A stretch of DNA of 64,000 nt from assembly GCA_947581855.1 (NCBI GenBank), contig CANPVZ010000003.1, positions 183,415 to 247,414 of the forward strand, written 5' to 3'. The notes beneath the pieces are model-generated. The model ran no database searches, was not told the DNA's origin, and saw only the letters and a list, made by a program, of their open reading frames with translations. Origin of the DNA: an uncultured Phocaeicola sp. GTDB lineage: Bacteria; Bacteroidota; Bacteroidia; Bacteroidales; Bacteroidaceae. Each line of letters opens with the position of its first letter. The first letter of the stretch is position 1. The translations under genes and the position numbers were made by a program. Shown piece after piece: positions 3 to 41,108 of this stretch.

Positions 3-230
3 TTGTCCTGTTTTTGGTTGGTAAGCTTATCTTTATTTCTGGTGTTCGTTATGATTATTTTCATAGATTCTACCCTGCAAAACCGAAATTTGAAGATTGG
101 ATTGTTTTCTGTGGTAGCAGCCTTTCTTCAGTTAATTGGATACGGAACAGGATTTTTGTATGCTTGGTGGAAGCGTTGTGTGCTAGGAAAAAATGAATTT
201 GCGGCTTTTGAAAAGAACTTTTACAAATAA
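3..230 (+). CDS. C-terminal fragment of a membrane protein, probably a family 2 glycosyltransferase
   Basis: The frame is open from the left edge of the window, so only the last 75 or so codons are visible and the true start lies outside. The fragment has two hydrophobic stretches (about residues 3-22 and 33-55) and then a short basic tail ending in AFEKNFYK. A hydrophobic pair followed by such a tail is common at the C-terminus of bacterial family 2 glycosyltransferases, but the catalytic domain is not in view, so the family is inferred. Its stop codon overlaps the radC start (TAATG), which suggests co-transcription and translational coupling. Confidence 0.5.
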   Translation: MSCFWLVSLSLFLVFVMIIFIDSTLQNRNLKIGLFSVVAAFLQLIGYGTGFLYAWWKRCVLGKNEFAAFEKNFYK

Positions 231-919
231 TGAAAGAACGGTTAAGTATAAATCAATGGGCTGAAGAAGATAGGCCGAGGGAAAAAATGTTGTTGCATGG
301 AGTGGCGGCGTTGTCGAATGCTGAACTATTGGCTATCTTGATAGGTTCTGGTAATGCGGAAGAATCGGCTGTGGAATTGATGCGTAAGGTTCTGAAAGAT
401 TATCATGATAACTTAAATGAACTGGGAAAATGTGGAGTAGATGAACTTTGCCATTATAAAGGGATTGGTCCGGCTAAGGCCATCAGTATTTTGGCTGCCT
501 CGGAATTGGGAAAGCGCCGTAAAGAGGAAGATGGAAGAGAGCGTGAAGTGATACGTTGCTCCAGTGATATTTATCATTATTTTCATCCTTTTATGTGCGA
601 CTTGCCCGTGGAGGAGTGCTGGTTGATGTTGTTGAACCGTTCTATGAAAGTGATTGAACGGATGAAGATCAGTAGTGGCGGCTTAACCGAAACTTCGGTG
701 GACGTCCGATGTATATTGAGGGAAGCTTTGTTAAAGAGGGCTACGGCAATGGCTTTATGTCATAATCATCCTTCCGGAAATGTAAATCCGAGTACCGGAG
801 ATATTCATCTGACTGATTGTTTGAAGAAAAGCGCAGATGTAATGAACATCGCATTGATAGACCATGTTGTGTTAACGGATGGTTGTTATTATAGTTTTGC
901 GGATGAAGGACGTCTTTAA
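230..919 (+). CDS. radC: RadC family JAB/MPN-domain protein
   Basis: The protein has 229 residues, normal for RadC. An N-terminal helix-hairpin-helix region contains a KGIGPAKA motif near residues 76-83. The C-terminal JAB1/MPN metalloprotease-like domain carries the zinc signature HxHPSG...PSxxD (H178, H180, D191). RadC was once named a DNA repair protein; its biochemical role is still unsettled. The start overlaps the stop of the upstream gene by one base. Confidence 0.95.
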   Translation: MKERLSINQWAEEDRPREKMLLHGVAALSNAELLAILIGSGNAEESAVELMRKVLKDYHDNLNELGKCGVDELCHYKGIGPAKAISILAASELGKRRKEEDGREREVIRCSSDIYHYFHPFMCDLPVEECWLMLLNRSMKVIERMKISSGGLTETSVDVRCILREALLKRATAMALCHNHPSGNVNPSTGDIHLTDCLKKSADVMNIALIDHVVLTDGCYYSFADEGRL

Positions 920-27915: not shown

Positions 27916-29253
27916 TTAAACGATTCCCTGTGCCATCATAGCATGGGCAACCTTCATAAAGCCTGCTATATTTGCGCCTTTCACATAGTTGATGTAACCG
28001 TCCGGCTGTGTGCCGTACTTCACACATTGTTCGTGTATGCCGTACATAATTCCGTGTAGTTTTTGATCAACTTCTTCTGCTGTCCAGCTCATGTGCATAG
28101 CGTTTTGACTCATTTCCAACCCTGATGTAGCTACACCGCCGGCATTCACTGCCTTACCGGGAGCATACATGGTTTTATGTTCAATGAAAGTATCGATTGC
28201 TTCCGGAGTACATCCCATGTTCGAGATTTCTCCCACACAAATAACATTATTATTAATTAAAGTCTTTGCATCGTCACCATTCAACTCATTTTGAGTTGCG
28301 CAAGGCAAAGCGATATCTACTTTGACTTCCCACGGACGGCGTCCTTCTACAAACGTTGCGCTCGGATATTTCTCGGCATACGGAGCTACTATATCATTAC
28401 CCGATGCGCGGAGTTCAAGCATATAATCTATTTTGTCACCGCTGATTCCGTCCGGATCATAAATGTAACCGTCCGGTCCCGAAATAGTCACCACTTTTGC
28501 ACCTAATTGAGTAGCTTTGGTTGCGGCCCCCCAGGCAACATTACCAAAACCTGAAATAGCAACTGTTTTTCCTTTAATATCAATACCTTTGGTTTTCAGC
28601 ATTTGGTTTACGAAATATAGACCACCGAAGCCTGTTGCTTCAGGACGAATCAGCGAACCGCCGAATTCCAGTCCCTTTCCGGTAAATGTACCGGTAAACT
28701 CGCGGGTAAGTTTCTTGTACATGCCAAACATATAGCCTACTTCGCGTCCGCCTACGCCTATATCGCCGGCCGGAACGTCCATATCCGGACCAAGGTGTCG
28801 CCATAACTCCAACATGAAAGCTTGACAGAAACGCATCACTTCGGCATCGCTCTTACCTCTTGGAGAGAAGTCGGAGCCACCTTTACCACCACCCATAGGC
28901 AGAGTTGTCAGTGCGTTTTTAAAAGTTTGTTCAAAGCCCAAGAACTTCAGAATTGACAAGTTTACTGATGCATGGAAACGGATACCGCCTTTATACGGGC
29001 CGATGGCATTGTTAAACTGTACGCGATAACCTAGGTTAACCTGTACTTTGCCATGGTCGTCTACCCAAGGAACTCTGAAAGTAAAAATACGATCGGGTTC
29101 CACTAAACGTTCGATAAGGCTGACTTTTTCAAATTCAGGATGTTGGTTGTAGATATCTTCAATGGATAAAAGTACTTCTTTTACCGCTTGGAGGTATTCC
29201 AATTCGCCCGGATGTTTTGCCTCAAGAGAGGACATGATACGTTCGATATTCAT
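27916..29253 (-). CDS. gdhA: Glutamate dehydrogenase, hexameric bacterial type
   Basis: A 445-residue enzyme interconverting 2-oxoglutarate plus ammonia and glutamate. The substrate motif GPYKGGIRFH has K88; the catalytic lysine K124 is in PMGGGKGGSDF. The Rossmann motif SGFGNVAWGAA lies near residue 240. Size and sequence fit the small hexameric, usually NADP-linked class, but cofactor choice is inference. A strong promoter lies just upstream. The divergently transcribed receiver/ATP-grasp gene is its neighbour. Confidence 0.95.
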   Translation of the reverse strand: MNIERIMSSLEAKHPGELEYLQAVKEVLLSIEDIYNQHPEFEKVSLIERLVEPDRIFTFRVPWVDDHGKVQVNLGYRVQFNNAIGPYKGGIRFHASVNLSILKFLGFEQTFKNALTTLPMGGGKGGSDFSPRGKSDAEVMRFCQAFMLELWRHLGPDMDVPAGDIGVGGREVGYMFGMYKKLTREFTGTFTGKGLEFGGSLIRPEATGFGGLYFVNQMLKTKGIDIKGKTVAISGFGNVAWGAATKATQLGAKVVTISGPDGYIYDPDGISGDKIDYMLELRASGNDIVAPYAEKYPSATFVEGRRPWEVKVDIALPCATQNELNGDDAKTLINNNVICVGEISNMGCTPEAIDTFIEHKTMYAPGKAVNAGGVATSGLEMSQNAMHMSWTAEEVDQKLHGIMYGIHEQCVKYGTQPDGYINYVKGANIAGFMKVAHAMMAQGIV

Positions 29254-29300
29254 GATAATTGGTTTTTAAGGTTAATGATAAAATGCAACCAAATACTGGT

Positions 29301-29332
29301 GCAAATATAGGTTATTATATGTATTGACCAAA
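29301..29332 (-). promoter_or_regulatory. Promoter of gdhA
   Basis: On the minus strand TTTG (29332-29329) lies 19 nt before TATATTTGC (29309-29301). Both boxes match the Bacteroides consensus. The start codon follows after about 47 nt. Confidence 0.85.
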
Positions 29333-29827
29333 ATTATTTGCGAAAATTTTATGTATAAACTGATAAAATGATAAGAACGGGGTGCGTATGGGTTATGAAT
29401 ACTGTTGCTTGACCAATCTCTGATCCTTAATAGCTGGAAACTTTTAACCGCAAGTCTTTCCCTTTAATTTTGTAAACTTTATGAGATGGATGATGGTAGG
29501 TTGTCTGGTGGTTTTCAAATTTTAATTCTAACTTTATAGTCCTTGCGAATATAGGTATTATAAATAAGTTCTTTCAGCCTCAAAGTTTATAGTGGGCTGA
29601 ACACTCTTCTATAAGACTGTAAAACCGAAAATCTTTTTATTTCATTTCCTCCAAAAGCAAACAACTCGCTTCTTTGTTTTCTTTCACTTATAGGCAAAGT
29701 GATAAATCTTTTACTATTATATATAAGGTATAAGAATAAGTGCGGTGAAAATAGATTTCTTTTCCAATTGTTGCATATTACGAGATTTATCCCGACTTTT
29801 GTTTGTTTCTTAAATTAAGACAGAACC
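29333..29827. other. Noncoding spacer between divergent genes
   Basis: No gene is seen. The only promoter-like match on the + strand is TAATTTTG at 29465-29472, about 355 nt before the next start, which is weak support. Confidence 0.5.
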
Positions 29828-32785
29828 ATGTTGAGTAAATTCAAACTGAACCAACTTTATTTTAAAGATACTTCGTTTGTCGATTTGATGACTAAACGAA
29901 TCTTCAACGTGCTACTGGTGGCAAATCCATATGATGCTTTCATGCTGGAAGATGACGGGCGCATAGATGAAAAGATTTTTAATGAGTACATGAATCTGAG
30001 TCTCCGTTATCCGCCTCGTTTTACACAGGTATCCACCAAGGAGGAGGCTTGGCAGAAACTTTCCGATATGACATTCGATTTCGTAATATGCATGCCCGGA
30101 ACGGATAATAGCGATGTGTTCGATATTGCCCGCAGTATTAAGGAGCGATACGAACATATTCCTTTAGTTGTGCTGACTCCTTTTTCACACGGCATCACCA
30201 AACGTATGGAAAACGAGGATCTGAGCATTTTCGAATATGTGTTTTGCTGGTTGGGAAATACCGATTTGCTGCTTTCCATCATCAAGCTGATAGAAGACAA
30301 GATGAATTTGGAGCATGATGTGAAAGAGGTTGGAGTGCAGATGATTATGCTGGTAGAAGATTCCATTCGTTTCTACTCCTCCGTATTGCCGAATCTTTAT
30401 AAGTTTGTGCTGAAACAGAGTAAAGACTTTGCTACCGAAGCTCTGAATGCCCATCAAAGTACTTTGCGTATGCGCGGGCGTCCTAAAATAGTATTGGCTC
30501 GTACTTACGAAGAGGCTATGGCGCTTTATGAGAAGTACAGCGACAATATATTGGGAGTGATTACCGATGCCAACTTTCCCCGTAATGGTAAGAAAGATCC
30601 GGAAGCCGGCCTTCGTTTGCTGGAAGCTATCCGGGCACAGGATGAGTACGTGCCGCTTATCATGCAGTCGTCCGAAGTGGGTAACGAGCAACTCGCCGGT
30701 CGGTATGGCGCCAGCTTTATCGATAAGAATTCGAAGAAGATGAATATCGATTTGAGAGAAGCAGTTTCGGCCAATTTCGGTTTCGGAGATTTCATTTTCC
30801 GCGATCCGAATACGATGGAAGAGATTGCAAGGGTGCGGAATCTGAAAGAATTGCAAAATATTATCTTTTCCGTACCGAAAGAATCGTTGCTCTATCATAT
30901 CAGTCGCAATCATGTATCGCGTTGGCTCTATTCGCGTGCCATGTTTCCGGTGGCTGAATTCTTGAAACAGATTACATGGAAATCTTTACAGGATGTAGAT
31001 GCGCACCGGCAGATTATTTTCGATGCTATCGTGAAATACCGGAAGATGAAGAATCGGGGTGTGGTGGCTGAGTTTCTGCGAGACCGTTTCGACACTTATT
31101 CCAATTTCGCCCGTATCGGCGAAGGCTCGTTGGGAGGCAAAGGGCGCGGACTGGCCTTTATCGATAACTTGGTGAAGCGCCACAGCGAATTCGAGAAGTT
31201 TGAAAACGCTTCAGTGGCGATACCCAAAACGGTGGTGCTTTGTACCGATATCTTCGATGAGTTCATGGATTCGAACAACCTTTATCAAATAGCTTTGAGC
31301 GACCAGCCCGATGATGTTATATTGAAGCATTTCCTTCGTGCAAAGTTACCCGACCGTTTGGTGGACGACTTTTTCGCTTTCTTCGATGTGGTAAAAGCTC
31401 CGGTAGCCATACGTTCGTCCAGTTTACTCGAGGATTCCCATTACCAGCCGTTTGCAGGAATCTATTCTACCTATATGATTCCTTATATAGAAGATAAATA
31501 CGAGATGCTCCGTATGCTGAGCGATGCGATAAAAGGAGTCTACGCTTCAGTATATTATCGGGACAGTAAAGCTTACATGCAAGCCACCAGCAATGTGATA
31601 GACCAGGAAAAGATGGCGGTTATCTTGCAGGAGGTGGTGGGAACTCAACGTGGCGATCGCTATTATCCGGCCATTTCGGGTGTAGCTCGTTCGCTCAATT
31701 ATTATCCCATAGGAGAGGAAAAAGCGGAAGAGGGAATTGTTAGCCTTGCGTTAGGACTGGGTAAATATATTGTTGATGGAGGTTTGACATTGCGTGTATG
31801 TCCCTACCATCCTCATCAGGTATTGCAAACCAGCGAGATGGAGATTGCCTTGCGTGAAACGCAGACTCAGTTTTATGCGTTGGATACGAAGAATGTAGGC
31901 GAGAACTTTTCCATCGATGATGGCTTCAATATCTTAAAGTTGCCGGTAAAAGAGGCTGAGAAAGATGGTGCGCTAATCTTTATCGCTTCCACTTACGACC
32001 CCTATGATATGGTTATTCGTGACGGTATCTATCCGGGAGGCCGTAAACTGATCACTTTTGCCAATGTATTGCAACACGATGTCTTCCCTTTGGCGGAACT
32101 TTTACAGTTGGCGCAGAAATATGGTCAGGAAGAGATGCGTCGTCCGGTGGAAATCGAATTTGCGGTGAAGTTGAGTCCGGATAAGACAGGCACTTTTTAT
32201 TTGTTGCAAATTCGTCCGATAGTAGATAGTAAGGAGATGCTCGATGAAGATTTGTCATTAATAAAGGATGAAGATACATTGTTGCGTTCCCATAATTCTT
32301 TAGGACACGGCATTGTAACCGATTTGCAAGACATTGTGTATGTGAAGACCGACAATTATACCCCTTCCAATAACCAGATGATAGCCTATGATATAGAAAA
32401 GTTGAACCGTCGTTTCTTGCAGGAAGGTAAAAACTATATATTGGTAGGTCCGGGACGCTGGGGCAGTAGCGACACATGGCTGGGCATTCCCGTTAAATGG
32501 CCGCATATCTCCGCTGCACGTGTCATTGTTGAAGCCGGATTGACTAATTATCGGGTAGACCCTTCGCAAGGGACACACTTCTTTCAGAATCTGACTTCTT
32601 TCGGTGTAGGATATTTCACCGTGAACGCCTTCCGTAAGGATGGGGTATATGATCAGGAGTTTTTGGATTCCTTGCCCGCTGTAGAGGAGACGCAATATCT
32701 GCGGCATGTACGTTTTGACGAGCCGTTGGTTGTGAAGATGGATGGTAAGAAGAATTTAGGAGTAGTGATGAAACCTTTTAAGTGA
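29828..32785 (+). CDS. Receiver-domain protein with a PPDK/PEP-synthase-type ATP-grasp domain
   Basis: A 985-residue cytoplasmic protein. Residues 24-150 look like a degenerate receiver (MPGTDN where the phospho-Asp would be). Residues 170-315 look like a real one: MLVEDS (E177, D178), ITDANFP (D247), MQSS (S281) and IDKNS (K300). The PPDK ATP-grasp part has GEGSLGGKGRGLA (431-443), VAIRSSSLLED (526-536) and LLQIRP near residue 798. No phosphohistidine (GGxTSHAA) or PEP-binding barrel follows. Instead there is an unrecognised C-terminal region with GPGRWGSSDTWLG. It is probably not a true PEP synthase. An alternative start is M21. Confidence 0.8.
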   Translation: MLSKFKLNQLYFKDTSFVDLMTKRIFNVLLVANPYDAFMLEDDGRIDEKIFNEYMNLSLRYPPRFTQVSTKEEAWQKLSDMTFDFVICMPGTDNSDVFDIARSIKERYEHIPLVVLTPFSHGITKRMENEDLSIFEYVFCWLGNTDLLLSIIKLIEDKMNLEHDVKEVGVQMIMLVEDSIRFYSSVLPNLYKFVLKQSKDFATEALNAHQSTLRMRGRPKIVLARTYEEAMALYEKYSDNILGVITDANFPRNGKKDPEAGLRLLEAIRAQDEYVPLIMQSSEVGNEQLAGRYGASFIDKNSKKMNIDLREAVSANFGFGDFIFRDPNTMEEIARVRNLKELQNIIFSVPKESLLYHISRNHVSRWLYSRAMFPVAEFLKQITWKSLQDVDAHRQIIFDAIVKYRKMKNRGVVAEFLRDRFDTYSNFARIGEGSLGGKGRGLAFIDNLVKRHSEFEKFENASVAIPKTVVLCTDIFDEFMDSNNLYQIALSDQPDDVILKHFLRAKLPDRLVDDFFAFFDVVKAPVAIRSSSLLEDSHYQPFAGIYSTYMIPYIEDKYEMLRMLSDAIKGVYASVYYRDSKAYMQATSNVIDQEKMAVILQEVVGTQRGDRYYPAISGVARSLNYYPIGEEKAEEGIVSLALGLGKYIVDGGLTLRVCPYHPHQVLQTSEMEIALRETQTQFYALDTKNVGENFSIDDGFNILKLPVKEAEKDGALIFIASTYDPYDMVIRDGIYPGGRKLITFANVLQHDVFPLAELLQLAQKYGQEEMRRPVEIEFAVKLSPDKTGTFYLLQIRPIVDSKEMLDEDLSLIKDEDTLLRSHNSLGHGIVTDLQDIVYVKTDNYTPSNNQMIAYDIEKLNRRFLQEGKNYILVGPGRWGSSDTWLGIPVKWPHISAARVIVEAGLTNYRVDPSQGTHFFQNLTSFGVGYFTVNAFRKDGVYDQEFLDSLPAVEETQYLRHVRFDEPLVVKMDGKKNLGVVMKPFK

Positions 32786-33257: not shown

Positions 33258-34499
33258 TTACTGAATATAGTTTCCCAGGTTTTGCACTTCTTCCCAACCC
33301 TTCTTCTCGAATATCTGTTTGGCACACCGTTCTGCTCCGGGATTTCCTTGTATGGCAATCAACCGTTGCGGGCGCGGTGGTGTAAGATCTCCTTTTACAG
33401 CTTTAGAAGTAAAGTCGGGCAGGGTGTCGAATAAAGTTTCAAGCGCATCCCTTTCCATTTTGTTCTCTCCGCAATCGAGCAGGTTTATTTCTTTGTTATT
33501 GTTAAGCGTAAGTTCGGTAAGCAGATTGTGGCGGCACTGTAATCCTATCAGTTCCTTATTATTGCTTAAGTCCAAAGCGGTAAGTTCATTCTCTGGGCAT
33601 GCCAATATGTAAAGTTGGGTATTGGCACTGACGTCCAATGCGGATAACCCGCAATTCGTGCAATTAAGCTTTCTCAACAGGGGACAATGGCTAAGGTCCA
33701 GTTCGTCTATCGGATTGGTTATACAAACCAAATCGGAAAGGATTTCATTATGGCTTAAGTCGATATCTGTCAGTTGGGTTTGGATCAGTTGCAGGATCTC
33801 GAGTTCTGTTTGCCGGCTCAAATCTATAGAAGTGATAGGCGTTTGAGCAAGAATCAAACGTTCTATCAACGGATTGTTCGACAGGTTAAGGTCTTTGATG
33901 TTTGTTTCCGAACATTGTAAATAAGTTAACTGAGATTGTGTGTTGAGGTTTAAAGAGGCAAGCCGTTTACAATCGAGACATTCTAAATGCTTCAATGTGG
34001 AAACGCCTGATAGATTCAATTCGGTGAGCTTTGGACAGACAGCCGCTTTAAAAACACTCAATTTAGGACAATTAGTCACTGCAAACGAACGCAGATTGGA
34101 AAGGATAGTGATTTCTAACTTTTCTAAAGAGGGACAGGCGCTTACCGTCAGTTCGGAAGATAGTGTTCCCATAGCGTTTCCTATTATCAGTTCGCGGATA
34201 GGAGCCTTTTCTATTTTAATGGTGTATGTGCCGCTTTTCGCATATTGATGGAGGAAATCGGTGGTATGCTCTTCGCTGCTAACGGTTTCTCTTTTTCCGT
34301 CGCCCCAGTCAATCACTATGTTATTTCCTTTTACACACACATCTGTTATGAATTTACCATTTTCATCGGCGGTTACTTGAGTGGTAATTTCCAAAGCTTC
34401 TCCATCTGGAATGGGAGCAGGCATGGAATCATTGTCGCTATCGGAACAGGCGATAAACAGTGCTGTGAGTAAAGTCAAAGTAAGCTTTTGTAGTTTCAT
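33258..34499 (-). CDS. PKD-domain and leucine-rich-repeat lipoprotein
   Basis: A 413-residue protein with lipobox FIAC (C18), so a probable outer-membrane or surface lipoprotein. A PKD-like domain follows (IDWGDGKRE...HQYAKSGTYTIKI, about residues 56-88). From about residue 110 there are roughly ten leucine-rich repeats of 20-23 residues, such as LTALDLSNNKELIGLQC. BspA-like LRR proteins of this type often bind host or microbial surfaces; the target here is unknown. The frame extends upstream, but MKLQKLTL at 34499 gives a proper signal peptide and lies after the -7 box. Confidence 0.8.
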   Translation of the reverse strand: MKLQKLTLTLLTALFIACSDSDNDSMPAPIPDGEALEITTQVTADENGKFITDVCVKGNNIVIDWGDGKRETVSSEEHTTDFLHQYAKSGTYTIKIEKAPIRELIIGNAMGTLSSELTVSACPSLEKLEITILSNLRSFAVTNCPKLSVFKAAVCPKLTELNLSGVSTLKHLECLDCKRLASLNLNTQSQLTYLQCSETNIKDLNLSNNPLIERLILAQTPITSIDLSRQTELEILQLIQTQLTDIDLSHNEILSDLVCITNPIDELDLSHCPLLRKLNCTNCGLSALDVSANTQLYILACPENELTALDLSNNKELIGLQCRHNLLTELTLNNNKEINLLDCGENKMERDALETLFDTLPDFTSKAVKGDLTPPRPQRLIAIQGNPGAERCAKQIFEKKGWEEVQNLGNYIQ

Positions 34500-34529
34500 G
34501 GTGTAATTTAATTGTAATGAATAAACACT

Positions 34530-34562
34530 GCAAAGATATATATAAAGTTTCGTGGGGGGGGG
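34530..34562 (-). promoter_or_regulatory. Promoter region of the LRR lipoprotein with a nine-base homopolymer
   Basis: On the minus strand the -7 box is TATCTTTGC (34538-34530). A run of nine G on the + strand (C on the minus; 34554-34562) occupies the place where the -33 box would be. No TTTG is present there. Confidence 0.5.
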
Positions 34563-34660
34563 TAGAAGAAAGAAATTATTTTTGTTTGACTTAACAATCT
34601 TTACAAGAATCAGCTTTGAGAAATAAAGGCTCATTCTTGTTTGGTAAGTTGCAGACATAA

Positions 34661-34879
34661 AAGGTCTTTTATATATACCATGGAGGCTTTTGCCTACACT
34701 CTGCACCTAATATCCAACGTCGGACCCAGGCCTTGCGTTTACATGGCCGGGCACTCGGCGATTACGTAAGAGAATATTTCATCAATAACAGGTCCGGTTT
34801 CATTAAGACGAGCCGGATGGGGAAGAACGCTCCATTGGGGCGGGGTTATTTAGGCAACCGCATGAACCAACGCCTCTAA
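34661..34879 (+). pseudogene. Start-less open frame, unknown
   Basis: The frame is open for 72 codons after a TAA and has no ATG in its first two thirds. The later part (RRTQALRLHGRALGDYVREYF, FIKTSRMGKNAPLGRG, ending NRMNQRL) is strikingly protein-like and basic. I do not recognise a family. It may be a decayed gene, or a repeat that happens to be open. Confidence 0.3.
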
Positions 34880-34943: not shown

Positions 34944-37172
34944 TTATTTCCACCAGTTGGTGTGTTCTTTTCCTCCGCTGTTGGCCCAATCTTTAAAATC
35001 CGGATATTTATCTCCGATCTTTTCCTGTTCATCCGGATATCGGAAGTTTAAGATACTTGCGTCGGCATCGGCATTGAAATGAATGGCAAACGGGAAGTTA
35101 TCTTTAGCTGCATACCATTCGTGCTCACCAGTGTGTGGCCACAAATCACTTTTGCCTGTATTGTTCTCTCCTTTTGTTGCGAGATTATCGTAAGTGCTTA
35201 ATGCATTCGGGTGAGAAGGTGGGTTGCCTATGCAATGGATTTCCATACTATAATCATTGCCAGAAGTATTATCTTTCGAATATTTCAGAAGGAAGGGGTT
35301 GAAATAAGTAGACAGATTTGGGAAAATGGGCGCTTCGGTGGCAGATTTCAGCATTAATGGAACGGTGACCGTATAAGTAATTTCTTTATTAGCTTGTGGG
35401 GTGTTCCAGAAATCTAGTGCTTGTGCATTGTGCTGTATTCCAAAACCATTTGTTTTCACATAATGCTGTAGATAAATTATATAATTGTTTTCGCTTTTCT
35501 TATGAATCTCGTAATCAAATTCGGCCCGGTCATCTCGTGTGATGGTGATTCCTCCTTTGGACTCATCAACAGTATTGTCGCCTAAGTTGATTTCATAAGC
35601 AAAACTGTTGTCGTAGTTAGCTCCGTAATGCTTCATTACGAAAGTATCTGTAAATCTAGGATTGGAATAAGTGGTGGTCACACTTGGTTCAGGTGTATTG
35701 TTATCTATTGTTGTGACACGGTCATAAGTTTTTTTCAAATCGTAGGTAATAACTAAATCATTCAAGTCATAATCTCCCATCGACGGCCAGTTGTCTTCGA
35801 ATATCAGTAACCCTTTGTTTTGGGATTCCATTTGTTCGCCAGTGGTGACGATGGGTGGCAACTTCGTGGTTACTCCGTGTACTTTGAAGATAAGGTCGTT
35901 CATATCCTTATCTCCCCCACCTTCATAATCCCAATCATCCATTCCCACTAATATATGAATCTTATTGTCCGTAAATTTATAAGGAATAGTAGCGCAGCAT
36001 CCGTAACAGTAACCATTGATTTTATCGAATTTCTTATTATTGAAAGGTGTTGAGAACATTGGGTATTTGGAGTTTTTATTATTGTAACAAACAAAACCTA
36101 TTTTTGTGCCGGGACGCCATTGAGTGTCAAAAGTTCCGTCCTTTTTGATTGGCTTTAAGGTTACAGTCATACCAGAATAGATTCTGGCACTTATTCTATC
36201 ATACTGCTCTGGAATGGCATTGAAGAAGATGAGGCCTTTAGGGAGATTGACTATCTCCTGAGCAGTAGGAGGTCTATTGCCGTCATAGCAATAGTAAGCC
36301 AATAAATTTGTTGCTCCGGTGTAACCTCCTACAAAAGTTATTTTTACGGCATCGAATTCCGCATCTTCTTCTACTACTAAATCTGTTGCAATATCATGTT
36401 GCAGATCATAGGTAGGAGTCTTACCTTCTTGGAATCCTAGTTTTTTTGTTACAGAGTAAAGATCCCTGTACATTTTAGCTTCATCAGACTGAATTTTGTA
36501 TTTACCTCCTTTGGTGTCTTTAGCATTGTTTGGTGTTTCGGCCGGAACAAAAAGTAATCCATAAGAAGGCCATGCTCCTTTCTCATACCAAGTGCGACCT
36601 GTACGATTCTCGGTAAGTGTTAAGATGTTGAATTTGCTAAGCATTCCGTCCTCGATCGTCTCTCTGGTACTTTTATCCCTTAAACTCTTGATCTCTTTCG
36701 TATCATTATTTTCTTCTTCAACTCCCCAAATGTTATAGTCCTCGTTTATAATGACGGTACTTCCTGAAATTTCGCCTACTAGCATTTCACTAGGGTCGTA
36801 GGCATACAGGAATATTTTATCCAGTGTGGTAGGGAGGGTAAGCGTTCCGCTGTATGTTCCGTTTGTAGTGGTCGAAATCAGTGTAATAGGGGAAAGTCCT
36901 TCTTTCATAACAATAGAACCTGACTCTAATATTTCGAAAGGGTTTTCTATATAAACTTTGTATGTCACAGCTTCTGCTTTATCCAAGGTGAAGTCGAGAA
37001 ACACGTTTACGGTACTTTTGAAATCGAAGAAATTCAAAATGCCCGAAACCTGAGGCGCATAATTTGGATCGTAATAATCTTTATCTTCGTTACATCCGGT
37101 AAATACGACCAATAATACTGTAAGCAGAATGCTGCTCCAATATGTTTTTCCTTCCAGTCTTACGCTTTTCAT
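34944..37172 (-). CDS. LruC-domain (DUF4842) lipoprotein
   Basis: A 742-residue secreted lipoprotein (lipobox FTGC, C27). The N-terminus has the YYDPN motif shared with the divergent gene at 38346. Two Asp/Asn-rich patches, GGGDKDMNDLIF and GDYDLNDLVI (near residue 467), mark the DUF4114-like and DUF4842 (LruC) regions and look like calcium-binding loops. Function is unknown; such proteins are common at the Bacteroides cell surface. Its leader shares a 30-nt sequence with the divergent paralogue. Confidence 0.8.
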   Translation of the reverse strand: MKSVRLEGKTYWSSILLTVLLVVFTGCNEDKDYYDPNYAPQVSGILNFFDFKSTVNVFLDFTLDKAEAVTYKVYIENPFEILESGSIVMKEGLSPITLISTTTNGTYSGTLTLPTTLDKIFLYAYDPSEMLVGEISGSTVIINEDYNIWGVEEENNDTKEIKSLRDKSTRETIEDGMLSKFNILTLTENRTGRTWYEKGAWPSYGLLFVPAETPNNAKDTKGGKYKIQSDEAKMYRDLYSVTKKLGFQEGKTPTYDLQHDIATDLVVEEDAEFDAVKITFVGGYTGATNLLAYYCYDGNRPPTAQEIVNLPKGLIFFNAIPEQYDRISARIYSGMTVTLKPIKKDGTFDTQWRPGTKIGFVCYNNKNSKYPMFSTPFNNKKFDKINGYCYGCCATIPYKFTDNKIHILVGMDDWDYEGGGDKDMNDLIFKVHGVTTKLPPIVTTGEQMESQNKGLLIFEDNWPSMGDYDLNDLVITYDLKKTYDRVTTIDNNTPEPSVTTTYSNPRFTDTFVMKHYGANYDNSFAYEINLGDNTVDESKGGITITRDDRAEFDYEIHKKSENNYIIYLQHYVKTNGFGIQHNAQALDFWNTPQANKEITYTVTVPLMLKSATEAPIFPNLSTYFNPFLLKYSKDNTSGNDYSMEIHCIGNPPSHPNALSTYDNLATKGENNTGKSDLWPHTGEHEWYAAKDNFPFAIHFNADADASILNFRYPDEQEKIGDKYPDFKDWANSGGKEHTNWWK

Positions 37173-38324: not shown

Positions 38325-38345
38325 AAATAATAAATGGATAGAATA

Positions 38346-41108
38346 ATGAAAAAGGTGAATTGGAAAAAACAAAGCGTATGGGGATGGATCCTCTTGCTGA
38401 CAGTAGGTATTTCTTCTTGTACGGATGAGAAGAACTACTATGATCCGAATTGGGAACGCCCGCATTGTGATTTTACATTTGATACGGAAGCGACAACTTC
38501 TCTTGATTTGGCTTATGAGAATATTGGATTCCCCACTTCTGTGTATTTTGAGCTGTATGACCGGATGCCGGTAGAGGTTTCGGGAACAATGTATGTGAAA
38601 AAAGAAGGCGTGTTGCCTTTGTTTACCGGTTATACGGATGTGGATGGAACTTTTAAGGGAAATGTGCCTTTACCGTCATATTTGGATAAAGTGTATATCT
38701 ATACCTCGGCATTCTATGCGCAAACTTTGATAGAAACGACTGTGGGCAATGATGGACGTATAGTTGCAACTGATGCGGATATGGACACTAAAAACCAACG
38801 TGCGACTCGCGCAGGAAGTAGTTCTACAACATATAAATGTAAAGCAGTAACGGAAGATGGTTGGAAAACATGGTTAGGTGAATGGGATGAAAGTACAGGA
38901 CGTATAGATGGATTTAAAGAACCGGCAACTACGGGAACGACCCAAAAAACGATATTATGGAGTGATGACTTCTCTAAATATGATTCTTATGATGATGACG
39001 ACGAATTGCAGAAATTGTCCGGTTCAAAATCAGAATATAAAGGAGATTATACAATAAATGGCAGTGGTATTCGGGGTGATGATGGATGGATTAGATTTTT
39101 TTCGGTGAAAGAATCGCAGAGCGCAAATAGTATAACTTTACCGGATGTTATTAAATGGAGCGGTAATAAACGAACATTATATGTTAAGTTTAATGCTAAA
39201 TCTGCAAGTGGAAATTCTGTTATAACAGTTTCTTCTACTAGTGGTACTGTAAATCAGGGATCTGAGATATCATTAACACAAAAGAGTTCTGGCCATACAA
39301 TTATGATTACAGGTGTAAGTTCGGGAACAAAAATCACATTTAAAGGACCTCAAGGTAGCAATTGGACAAAAAAGTCTGGGAACAAATGGCAGGAATCAGC
39401 CAAATATAAAGATGCGATGATTGATAATATTGAAGTTTACTATGAAACAACTTCGACAGGCGGTGAACCTACATCCCATAATGGATACGCATTTACCGAT
39501 GAAAGTAGTTCTCTTTATATTCCGAAGAGTGAAGCTGCAACGTTACTCACAGCGCATCAGAGCGTAATTAACATAAATCAAACTTGTCCACAAAAATATC
39601 GTGCGGCTACAGATATGTTGGTGAATGAAGACGCTAAAGTCGTTATTTCTTTATTGGGCGGTAACACATGCTGGAATAGTTCACTGGGTTATTATTATTA
39701 TAAAGATGGCAATGCGCCTAAAGATCTTAGGGATGCGAATGTAATTATGTTATTCCCGAATACTCAAGACGGTTTGTATTCCGTATATCCGAATGAATCA
39801 AAGCGTACTCAAGGTGTGGTTCGGGGGACAAATGTACAGTTAAAATTCTATGGTGAAAATCCGTCTAAAGAAAATGAATCCGAAGTTTTTCCTAAAGGGT
39901 ATCGTATTGGTTTTGTTCTGGCATGTAATACTTGGACAAATCGCCAAACAGAATGGCAATGTACGCAAGATCAAGCATATCGTGCAGCAACATCTTCCGG
40001 TCTGAGCGTGACAAATAATGGTAGCAAGTTTGGGGAACCGCGTACGGCCGTGTATCGTTATGGAGATTATGTAATGATTTCATTTGAGGATAACGATGAC
40101 GATGAAAACTTTAGTGATGTGGTATTTACATTAAAAACCGATCCGATAAAGGCTATTACGGACATTGTGACAGTAGAAGATGTCGAGACTTATAGTGAAT
40201 CTTACAAAGGGATATATGGCTTTGAGGATATATGGCCGATGCAGGGAGATTATGATATGAATGATTTGTTGGTGAAATGTACGCAAGGAACTACGTTTAC
40301 ACATTATGTGACAACTCAGACCTCAACAGGAACCGGCGGTCAGACTACAACCACTGTTACAAGCTCTGATGCGGAACTGACGGCAGAGTCATTTATTTTA
40401 AAGACATTCTCCAATCGTGCCGATTATACGGATGGTCTTGCTTGCATTTTGGATTTACCGCAAGAGTCCGCAATTCAAGCTATCAACTACTATAGAAAAA
40501 CAAAAGGCGCAAGTGACTTTGAGGCATATAAACCGGCGTCTGAATGGAGTAAGGAGGATATCTATAATGGTCATGGTTCATTTGCTTATAATGGTTATGG
40601 ATCGGGGCAATATAACATTATCAGATTAACAGGTAATGTAAAGGAAAGTATGGAGGCAGAATATAAAATAGAGATACTATACAATAAAGATTCTCATATA
40701 GACAAAAATACGCGTTCGGCTATTCGTCCTTTTATTTATATAGAGGCTGGGAAAGGTAGCTTGCAAGAGTATTACGAAGTGCATATACCATTGGAGGCTC
40801 CAACAAATAGAGTTTCGAAAACGTGGTGGTCTAAAAATGCGGATGCGTCTCGTCCTGCTAGTGTTATAGCGGATGGAAGTGGTAGGGGTGAATTCTATGT
40901 CCGAGCTAATGATCTAACGAACTATCTATATGGACCGTGGTATCCCTTTGCTATCTTTTTGGCAGGTGCTACGGAAACGGATCTTTCTCAATTGCTTAAT
41001 CCGGATAATGAAACGGTTCCTATCAGTAAACTGTATCCGAATTATGAAAATTGGGTAAAATCGAACGGAACAAGTTATACTGACTGGTATAAAACAACTC
41101 AGAAGTAA
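38346..41108 (+). CDS. LruC-domain (DUF4842) lipoprotein with an extra internal domain
   Basis: A large secreted lipoprotein of about 920 residues (lipobox ISSC, C25 from this start). It shares YYDPN with the divergent paralogue and has the same late Asp/Asn-rich patches: EDNDDDENFSDVVF and GDYDMNDLLV. About 165 residues (roughly 203-368), starting WSDDFSKYDSYDDDDE and beta-rich, have no counterpart in the paralogue and may be an inserted jelly-roll-like module. An ATG four codons upstream (38334) is the alternative start. Confidence 0.8.
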   Translation: MKKVNWKKQSVWGWILLLTVGISSCTDEKNYYDPNWERPHCDFTFDTEATTSLDLAYENIGFPTSVYFELYDRMPVEVSGTMYVKKEGVLPLFTGYTDVDGTFKGNVPLPSYLDKVYIYTSAFYAQTLIETTVGNDGRIVATDADMDTKNQRATRAGSSSTTYKCKAVTEDGWKTWLGEWDESTGRIDGFKEPATTGTTQKTILWSDDFSKYDSYDDDDELQKLSGSKSEYKGDYTINGSGIRGDDGWIRFFSVKESQSANSITLPDVIKWSGNKRTLYVKFNAKSASGNSVITVSSTSGTVNQGSEISLTQKSSGHTIMITGVSSGTKITFKGPQGSNWTKKSGNKWQESAKYKDAMIDNIEVYYETTSTGGEPTSHNGYAFTDESSSLYIPKSEAATLLTAHQSVININQTCPQKYRAATDMLVNEDAKVVISLLGGNTCWNSSLGYYYYKDGNAPKDLRDANVIMLFPNTQDGLYSVYPNESKRTQGVVRGTNVQLKFYGENPSKENESEVFPKGYRIGFVLACNTWTNRQTEWQCTQDQAYRAATSSGLSVTNNGSKFGEPRTAVYRYGDYVMISFEDNDDDENFSDVVFTLKTDPIKAITDIVTVEDVETYSESYKGIYGFEDIWPMQGDYDMNDLLVKCTQGTTFTHYVTTQTSTGTGGQTTTTVTSSDAELTAESFILKTFSNRADYTDGLACILDLPQESAIQAINYYRKTKGASDFEAYKPASEWSKEDIYNGHGSFAYNGYGSGQYNIIRLTGNVKESMEAEYKIEILYNKDSHIDKNTRSAIRPFIYIEAGKGSLQEYYEVHIPLEAPTNRVSKTWWSKNADASRPASVIADGSGRGEFYVRANDLTNYLYGPWYPFAIFLAGATETDLSQLLNPDNETVPISKLYPNYENWVKSNGTSYTDWYKTTQK

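Follow-up and report, generated by a model that had tools for sequence, protein, structure and literature searches.

What is the target of a protein that joins the receivers of two-component signaling to the ATP-binding module of pyruvate phosphate dikinase (PPDK)? The question is raised by a 64,000-nucleotide stretch of DNA from an uncultured Phocaeicola sp. (contig CANPVZ010000003.1, positions 183,415 to 247,414; hereafter the window), in which a real open reading frame (ORF) at 29828-32785 encodes a 985-amino acid (aa) protein of this kind, beside a gene for glutamate dehydrogenase (GDH). A preliminary description of the window had read the protein as a phosphorylation-controlled, ATP-dependent phosphotransferase or ligase with an unknown acceptor. 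Of these, the phosphotransferase is still the best reading, and the foremost candidate for the phosphoryl acceptor is now GDH. Our proposal is that the protein is a phosphotransferase dedicated to GDH, gated by its receivers and forming AMP; to this, with its full phosphotransfer mechanism, we assign a probability of roughly 0.4; that GDH is regulated in some form by the 985-aa protein is probable. The linkage with GDH is strong; the catalysis and the acceptor we infer. Existing names for members of the family are generic ("PEP/pyruvate-binding domain-containing protein", "CheY-like chemotaxis protein", "histidine kinase", "response regulator", "uncharacterized protein"), and our search of the literature on receiver-PPDK proteins, GDH inactivation in Bacteroides and GDH with partners resembling phosphoenolpyruvate (PEP) synthase found no description of the protein among the papers listed.

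Domain architecture and conservation

Enzymes of the PPDK_N family convert ATP to AMP and a phosphohistidine and then pass the phosphoryl group on to an acceptor, which is bound in a domain of its own. The first of these three modules is clearly present in the 985-aa protein. PF01326 (PPDK_N) matched aa 434-806 with an E of 1.6e-42, and the match came with the ATP-site residues expected of the nucleotide domain of PEP-utilizing enzymes, bearing out the PPDK-type motifs that had been read from the sequence. In NCBIfam the hits were mainly to models of PEP synthase, prodigiosin ligase and rifamycin phosphotransferase, and every one fell well short of its cut-off (the Rph model, for example, scored 15.2 bits where 999 are required). 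We compared 58 members of the family, which fall into three architectures: type A (n = 32), with receivers, PPDK_N and the C-terminal domain; type B (n = 8), 572-589 aa long and without receivers; and type C (n = 18), 776-1066 aa long and with another N-terminus. K438, R529, E777 and Q794, together with G876-R877-W878-G879, D882, E902, S913, G915, H917, F918 and F919, were invariant in 58/58, and position 775 was either E or D.

The receiver part of the predicted structure kept its fold and matched, among others, the tandem receivers of 3luf (aa 25..319) and PleD. At sequence level, a receiver match at aa 207-288 fell slightly below the Pfam cut-off. REC2, previously described as intact, unites the receiver fold with an acidic pair, a phosphoacceptor Asp, a Ser/Thr and a Lys; in an alignment of 32 full-length members (the window protein, 2 from its own family and 29 others), E177, D247 and K300 occurred in 32/32 and D178 and S281 in 31/32. 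REC1 was rightly called degenerate, having no phosphoacceptor Asp at the expected place, which was assigned by eye. In its serial receivers, one of them phosphorylatable, the protein resembles PleD-like regulators; its output is, however, an ATP-grasp dikinase-type module and not a diguanylate cyclase. In PleD, unlike the 985-aa protein, the first receiver is not the degenerate one. Behind REC2, a match to PF19027 (DUF5752) at aa 322-363 was below cut-off (E 0.045), as was that of a homolog (E 0.0053). No kinase was found among the ORFs of the window beside the 985-aa gene.

The second module, the phosphohistidine domain, had been described as missing, and the C-terminus as unrecognized. The latter holds for sequence profiles, none of which matched or confirmed such a domain; on fold evidence the claim of absence is probably wrong. 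In a confident model (predicted local distance difference test, pLDDT, of 86), the C-terminal domain aligned by fold with the phosphohistidine domains of PEP synthase (2ols), of five PPDK entries and of rifampin phosphotransferase (Rph), alignment ranges giving first and last residues only. Rph was the best Foldseek match of aa 413-985 (5hv1 and 5hv3; E 5.5e-14). Given these alignments to PEP synthase and PPDK and the presence of H917 in 58/58 members, the C-terminus is probably not new, and we predict that it is a phosphohistidine domain that swivels and has H917 as its carrier residue. The preliminary description had counted the discovery of such a domain as evidence against itself, yet the fold evidence for it strengthens the idea of a phosphotransferase. 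A viral fold library yielded two matches under E 0.001, one of them a Bacillus phage G protein.

The third module is absent. As previously stated, there is no PEP-binding barrel, either in Pfam or in the profile comparison, where the PEP-barrel columns found no match, and 179 residues follow the ATP-grasp match. Consequently, the second substrate is not built into the protein. The 985-aa protein shares with PEP synthase and PPDK the PPDK_N ATP-grasp with its nucleotide-site residues, and its C-terminal domain can be aligned by fold with the phosphohistidine domain of 2ols and of five PPDK entries, but it differs in the lack of the PEP/pyruvate barrel, in the two receivers in front and in a C-terminal domain unrecognized by sequence. 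Rph, its best structural match, transfers phosphate from ATP to the acceptor by means of a mobile His domain and has a drug-binding domain in the chain. None was seen here: the ATP-grasp (to aa 806) directly precedes the 813-985 domain, with no rifampin-binding domain between the two.

Distribution of the family and linkage with GDH

In a survey of the phylum (296 genomes, threshold E 1e-10, best two candidates per genome scored), 49 genomes had a match; in nine of these the match was to the distant type C alone. The proteins nearest the distant type A profile bear names like Ignavibacteriales and Melioribacteraceae bacterium. In the window's own family, the Bacteroidaceae, the gene was present in 182 of 199 genomes, and all 69 genomes searched in the Bacteroides genus group had it, one copy being interrupted by a stop. 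The source genome has one copy of the 985-aa gene and two GDH genes.

The preliminary description had taken the neighboring gdhA as a hint, and neighborhoods support it: GDH was the commonest neighbor outside the family and a frequent one within. We examined 40 hand-chosen regions, 38 of them outside the family and covering 29 of the 47 type A and 8 of the 11 type B places listed there. GDH (ELFV dehydrogenase) was adjacent to 23/29 distant type A members and within three ORFs of 24/29 (17/22 loci). Corresponding counts were 6/8 and 7/8 for type B, and 6/18 and 13/18 for type C. The linked GDH was invariably on the same strand in these regions. For distant type A members GDH led by far; a response regulator came next (11/29), then a histidine-kinase cluster (8/29), and either may have been counted twice where it lies between tandem copies. 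Tandem type A copies accompany different GDH types, and operons of types B and C occur mainly with a 428-aa GDH type.

Within the Bacteroidaceae, GDH lay within 7.5 kb of the gene in 15 of 22 loci (stub L081 left out). Among the best-scoring 80 named loci, 39 had GDH within three ORFs; for the 50 of these that were well-flanked (6 kb or more of sequence on both sides), GDH was within three ORFs in 32 and adjacent in 20. The gene is divergent from a 445-aa GDH in the window and in B. fragilis (L094; 358 bp), and convergent with a 444-aa GDH at a distance of 74-87 bp in L124, P. paurosaccharolyticus (L131) and B. graminisolvens (L145). Linkage is kept in several forms: at about 40% identity, in divergent or convergent order in the family and on the same strand elsewhere, and by paralogs whose GDH partners are of different types.

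Regions with distant type A members repeatedly contain a LuxR-like regulator and a histidine-kinase cluster, which in L034 is PAS-HisKA_3 (L034, L036-L038, L047, L067, L068), and this kinase could feed REC2. In paralog operons, a receiver-less PPDK_N protein of 572-589 aa is followed by a PPDK_N protein of 1060-1065 aa (L045:3805-8723, L051, L052, L054-L057); in 6/7 of these loci a 428-type GDH lies no more than three ORFs upstream. Three type C proteins were scanned (L045, L058, L060), and a C-terminal nucleotidyltransferase, PF01909, was found in L045 (E 1.5e-7) and L060 (6.5e-7). The PF01909 end of the long L045 paralog is possibly a nucleotidylylating arm of the same family.

Table 1. Coordinates of the 985-aa protein gene, its domains and the linked GDH gene in the window.
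Feature	Position	Strand	Basis
985-aa protein, REC1-REC2-linker-PPDK_N ATP-grasp-C-terminal domain	29828..32785	+	2958-bp ORF
REC1, degenerate receiver, ~aa 25-165	29900..30322	+	tandem-receiver fold match 3luf 25..319; residue counts
REC2, intact receiver, ~aa 169-323; phosphoacceptor D247 at 30566-30568	30332..30796	+	sub-cut-off Pfam, fold, conservation
Linker, aa 324-412, weak DUF5752 resemblance	30797..31063	+	sub-cut-off PF19027
PPDK-type ATP-grasp, aa 434-806; K438, R529, E775, E777, Q794	31127..32245	+	Pfam, conservation, fold
C-terminal domain (by prediction a phosphohistidine swivel domain, divergent), aa 813-985	32264..32782	+	fold alignment; invariant residues; no support from sequence profiles
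GRWG 876-879, invariant; H917, invariant, at 32576-32578	within C-terminal domain	+	
Glutamate dehydrogenase (GDH), 445 aa, proposed partner	27916..29253	-	Pfam ELFV_dehydrog E 4.6e-87; neighbor conservation
Divergent intergenic region, gdh to 985-aa gene, 574 bp	29254..29827	.	sequence

Just downstream of the 985-aa gene, the window encodes a 482-aa protein (33258-34706, minus strand) that is leucine-rich-repeat-like by eye and had no Pfam match at E 1e-4. Beyond it lie large DUF4842 and DUF4114 proteins, lipoprotein-like by eye (34944-37172, minus strand, and 38334-41108, plus strand), divergently oriented and separated by about 1.2 kb.

Relation to earlier work

The abstract of a 1996 study reportedly states that GdhA, inactive in E. 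coli, regained activity there with a 3-kb segment from downstream of gdhA. The title of that study speaks of trans-acting gene(s) that lie downstream of gdhA in B. thetaiotaomicron and affect GDH activity (Baggio & Morrison 1996). The 985-aa gene family is a candidate for these gene(s): at 2958 bp the gene is about the right size, and it is in the right place in L124, L131 and L145, its identity in B. thetaiotaomicron being that of a candidate only. For three of the B. thetaiotaomicron tags BT_1970-1973 a literature search gave no paper, and two papers call BT1971 a catalase; we therefore make no locus-tag claim. GDH of B. fragilis is also reported to undergo "reversible inactivation", a statement that our literature search did not recover. 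A passage citing Abrahams & Abratt (1998) describes the NAD(P)H GDH as inhibited at high organic nitrogen. In P. ruminicola 23, a passage in PMC5552732 places a Cys/Met-metabolism gene upstream of the NAD-dependent gdh, an order resembling that of L079.

Weighing of the proposal and its rivals

A number of observations weigh against phosphotransfer to GDH. The top fold match, 5hv1, spans 287 residues and stops at 748, in seven other PPDK entries the alignment is confined to the ATP domain or its vicinity, and the H917 loop is the least certain part of its domain (block pLDDT of 43 in model 1 and 61 in model 2). The Pfam scan found no phosphohistidine domain (PF00391), and nothing significant emerged when the C-terminal region was compared, profile against profile, with the phosphohistidine domains that PPDK, PEP synthase and enzyme I have in related genomes; note however that hhalign scored even the ATP-grasp part against PPDK at just 1.5%, which makes this test insensitive and no disproof. 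GDH was not nearby in 5/29 distant type A members (L041, L043, L047, L048, L050), in 7/22 Bacteroidaceae loci (L071, L082, L083, L085, L086, L088, L089, where L089 is a short contig and L088 is from another species of the window's genus) or in 18/50 well-flanked loci among the best 80 named, and linked loci within each group share descent. Furthermore, B. thetaiotaomicron was neither among those best 80 loci nor recognized in the genomes surveyed. Finally, 10/17 family genomes without the gene retain the 445-type GDH, which therefore has no strict need for it.

Co-loss statistics carry little weight here, since the 21 controls were hand-picked and the test was post hoc, with GDH typed against two references. 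The 445-type GDH occurred in 20/21 genomes with the gene versus 10/17 without it (P 0.013), the 446-type in 16/21 versus 8/17 (P 0.094), and both types in 15/21 versus 2/17 (P 0.0003). Gene-less genomes G405, G430, G436 and G478 have a divergent 445-type GDH (68-70% to the window GDH), and so does G414 (69%), which has the gene.

Control of GDH without phosphorylation is rather unlikely. The protein would then be a receiver-gated, ATP-driven partner that assembles, activates or binds and inhibits GDH, or a nucleotide-adding enzyme. The GDH linkage itself, PF01909 in 2/3 of the type C paralogs scanned and the lack of sequence support for the phosphohistidine assignment all speak for it, but the 985-aa protein has no PF01909-type nucleotidyltransferase, and full conservation of the ATP-site residues and H917 better matches phosphotransfer than a binding-only role. 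We consider it unlikely that the protein is a dikinase or ligase of metabolism whose substrate is a small molecule from the glutamate/2-oxoglutarate node and whose gene is placed beside GDH because both serve one pathway. The nearest solved folds (Rph, PEP synthase, PPDK) do act on small molecules, and some relatives have near the gene a pyridoxal phosphate (PLP) enzyme of Cys/Met metabolism and what is, by eye, a malic enzyme. Against this explanation, no PEP barrel was matched, about 170 residues are left beyond aa 813, and outside the Bacteroidaceae the conserved neighbor is GDH and no other metabolic enzyme. A stand-alone two-component output enzyme, whose linkage with GDH would be mere inherited gene order, gains from the unlinked well-flanked loci and from shared descent but is very unlikely, given that linkage persists at about 40% identity, in varied orientations and in paralogs with different GDH types.

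Proposed mechanism and significance

With the first module kept, the second predicted and the third absent, and with GDH as the partner conserved at a distance, we propose receiver-gated phosphotransfer to GDH. A histidine kinase would phosphorylate D247 of REC2, REC1 serving as an unphosphorylated adaptor. Phosphorylation of REC2 would free the ATP-grasp/His pair to react as in PEP synthase, forming phospho-H917 and releasing AMP. From H917 the phosphoryl group would then pass to GDH, which would take the place of the built-in PEP barrel or drug pocket, and the transfer would alter GDH activity according to nitrogen supply. A broader claim is possible, if doubtful: that this two-component-gated, AMP-forming ATP-grasp/phosphohistidine machine is a dikinase-type protein kinase that phosphorylates GDH, a nitrogen switch of Bacteroidota unrelated to PII, GlnD and GlnE, and that it explains the trans-acting gdhA factor of 1996.

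GDH is a main entry point of ammonia in Bacteroides and Prevotella, dominant bacteria of the gut and rumen, and we know of no clear account of how its activity is controlled in them after synthesis. A specific candidate with named residues makes this question testable. Should GDH prove to be the acceptor, chemistry of the PPDK type would here do the work of a protein kinase.
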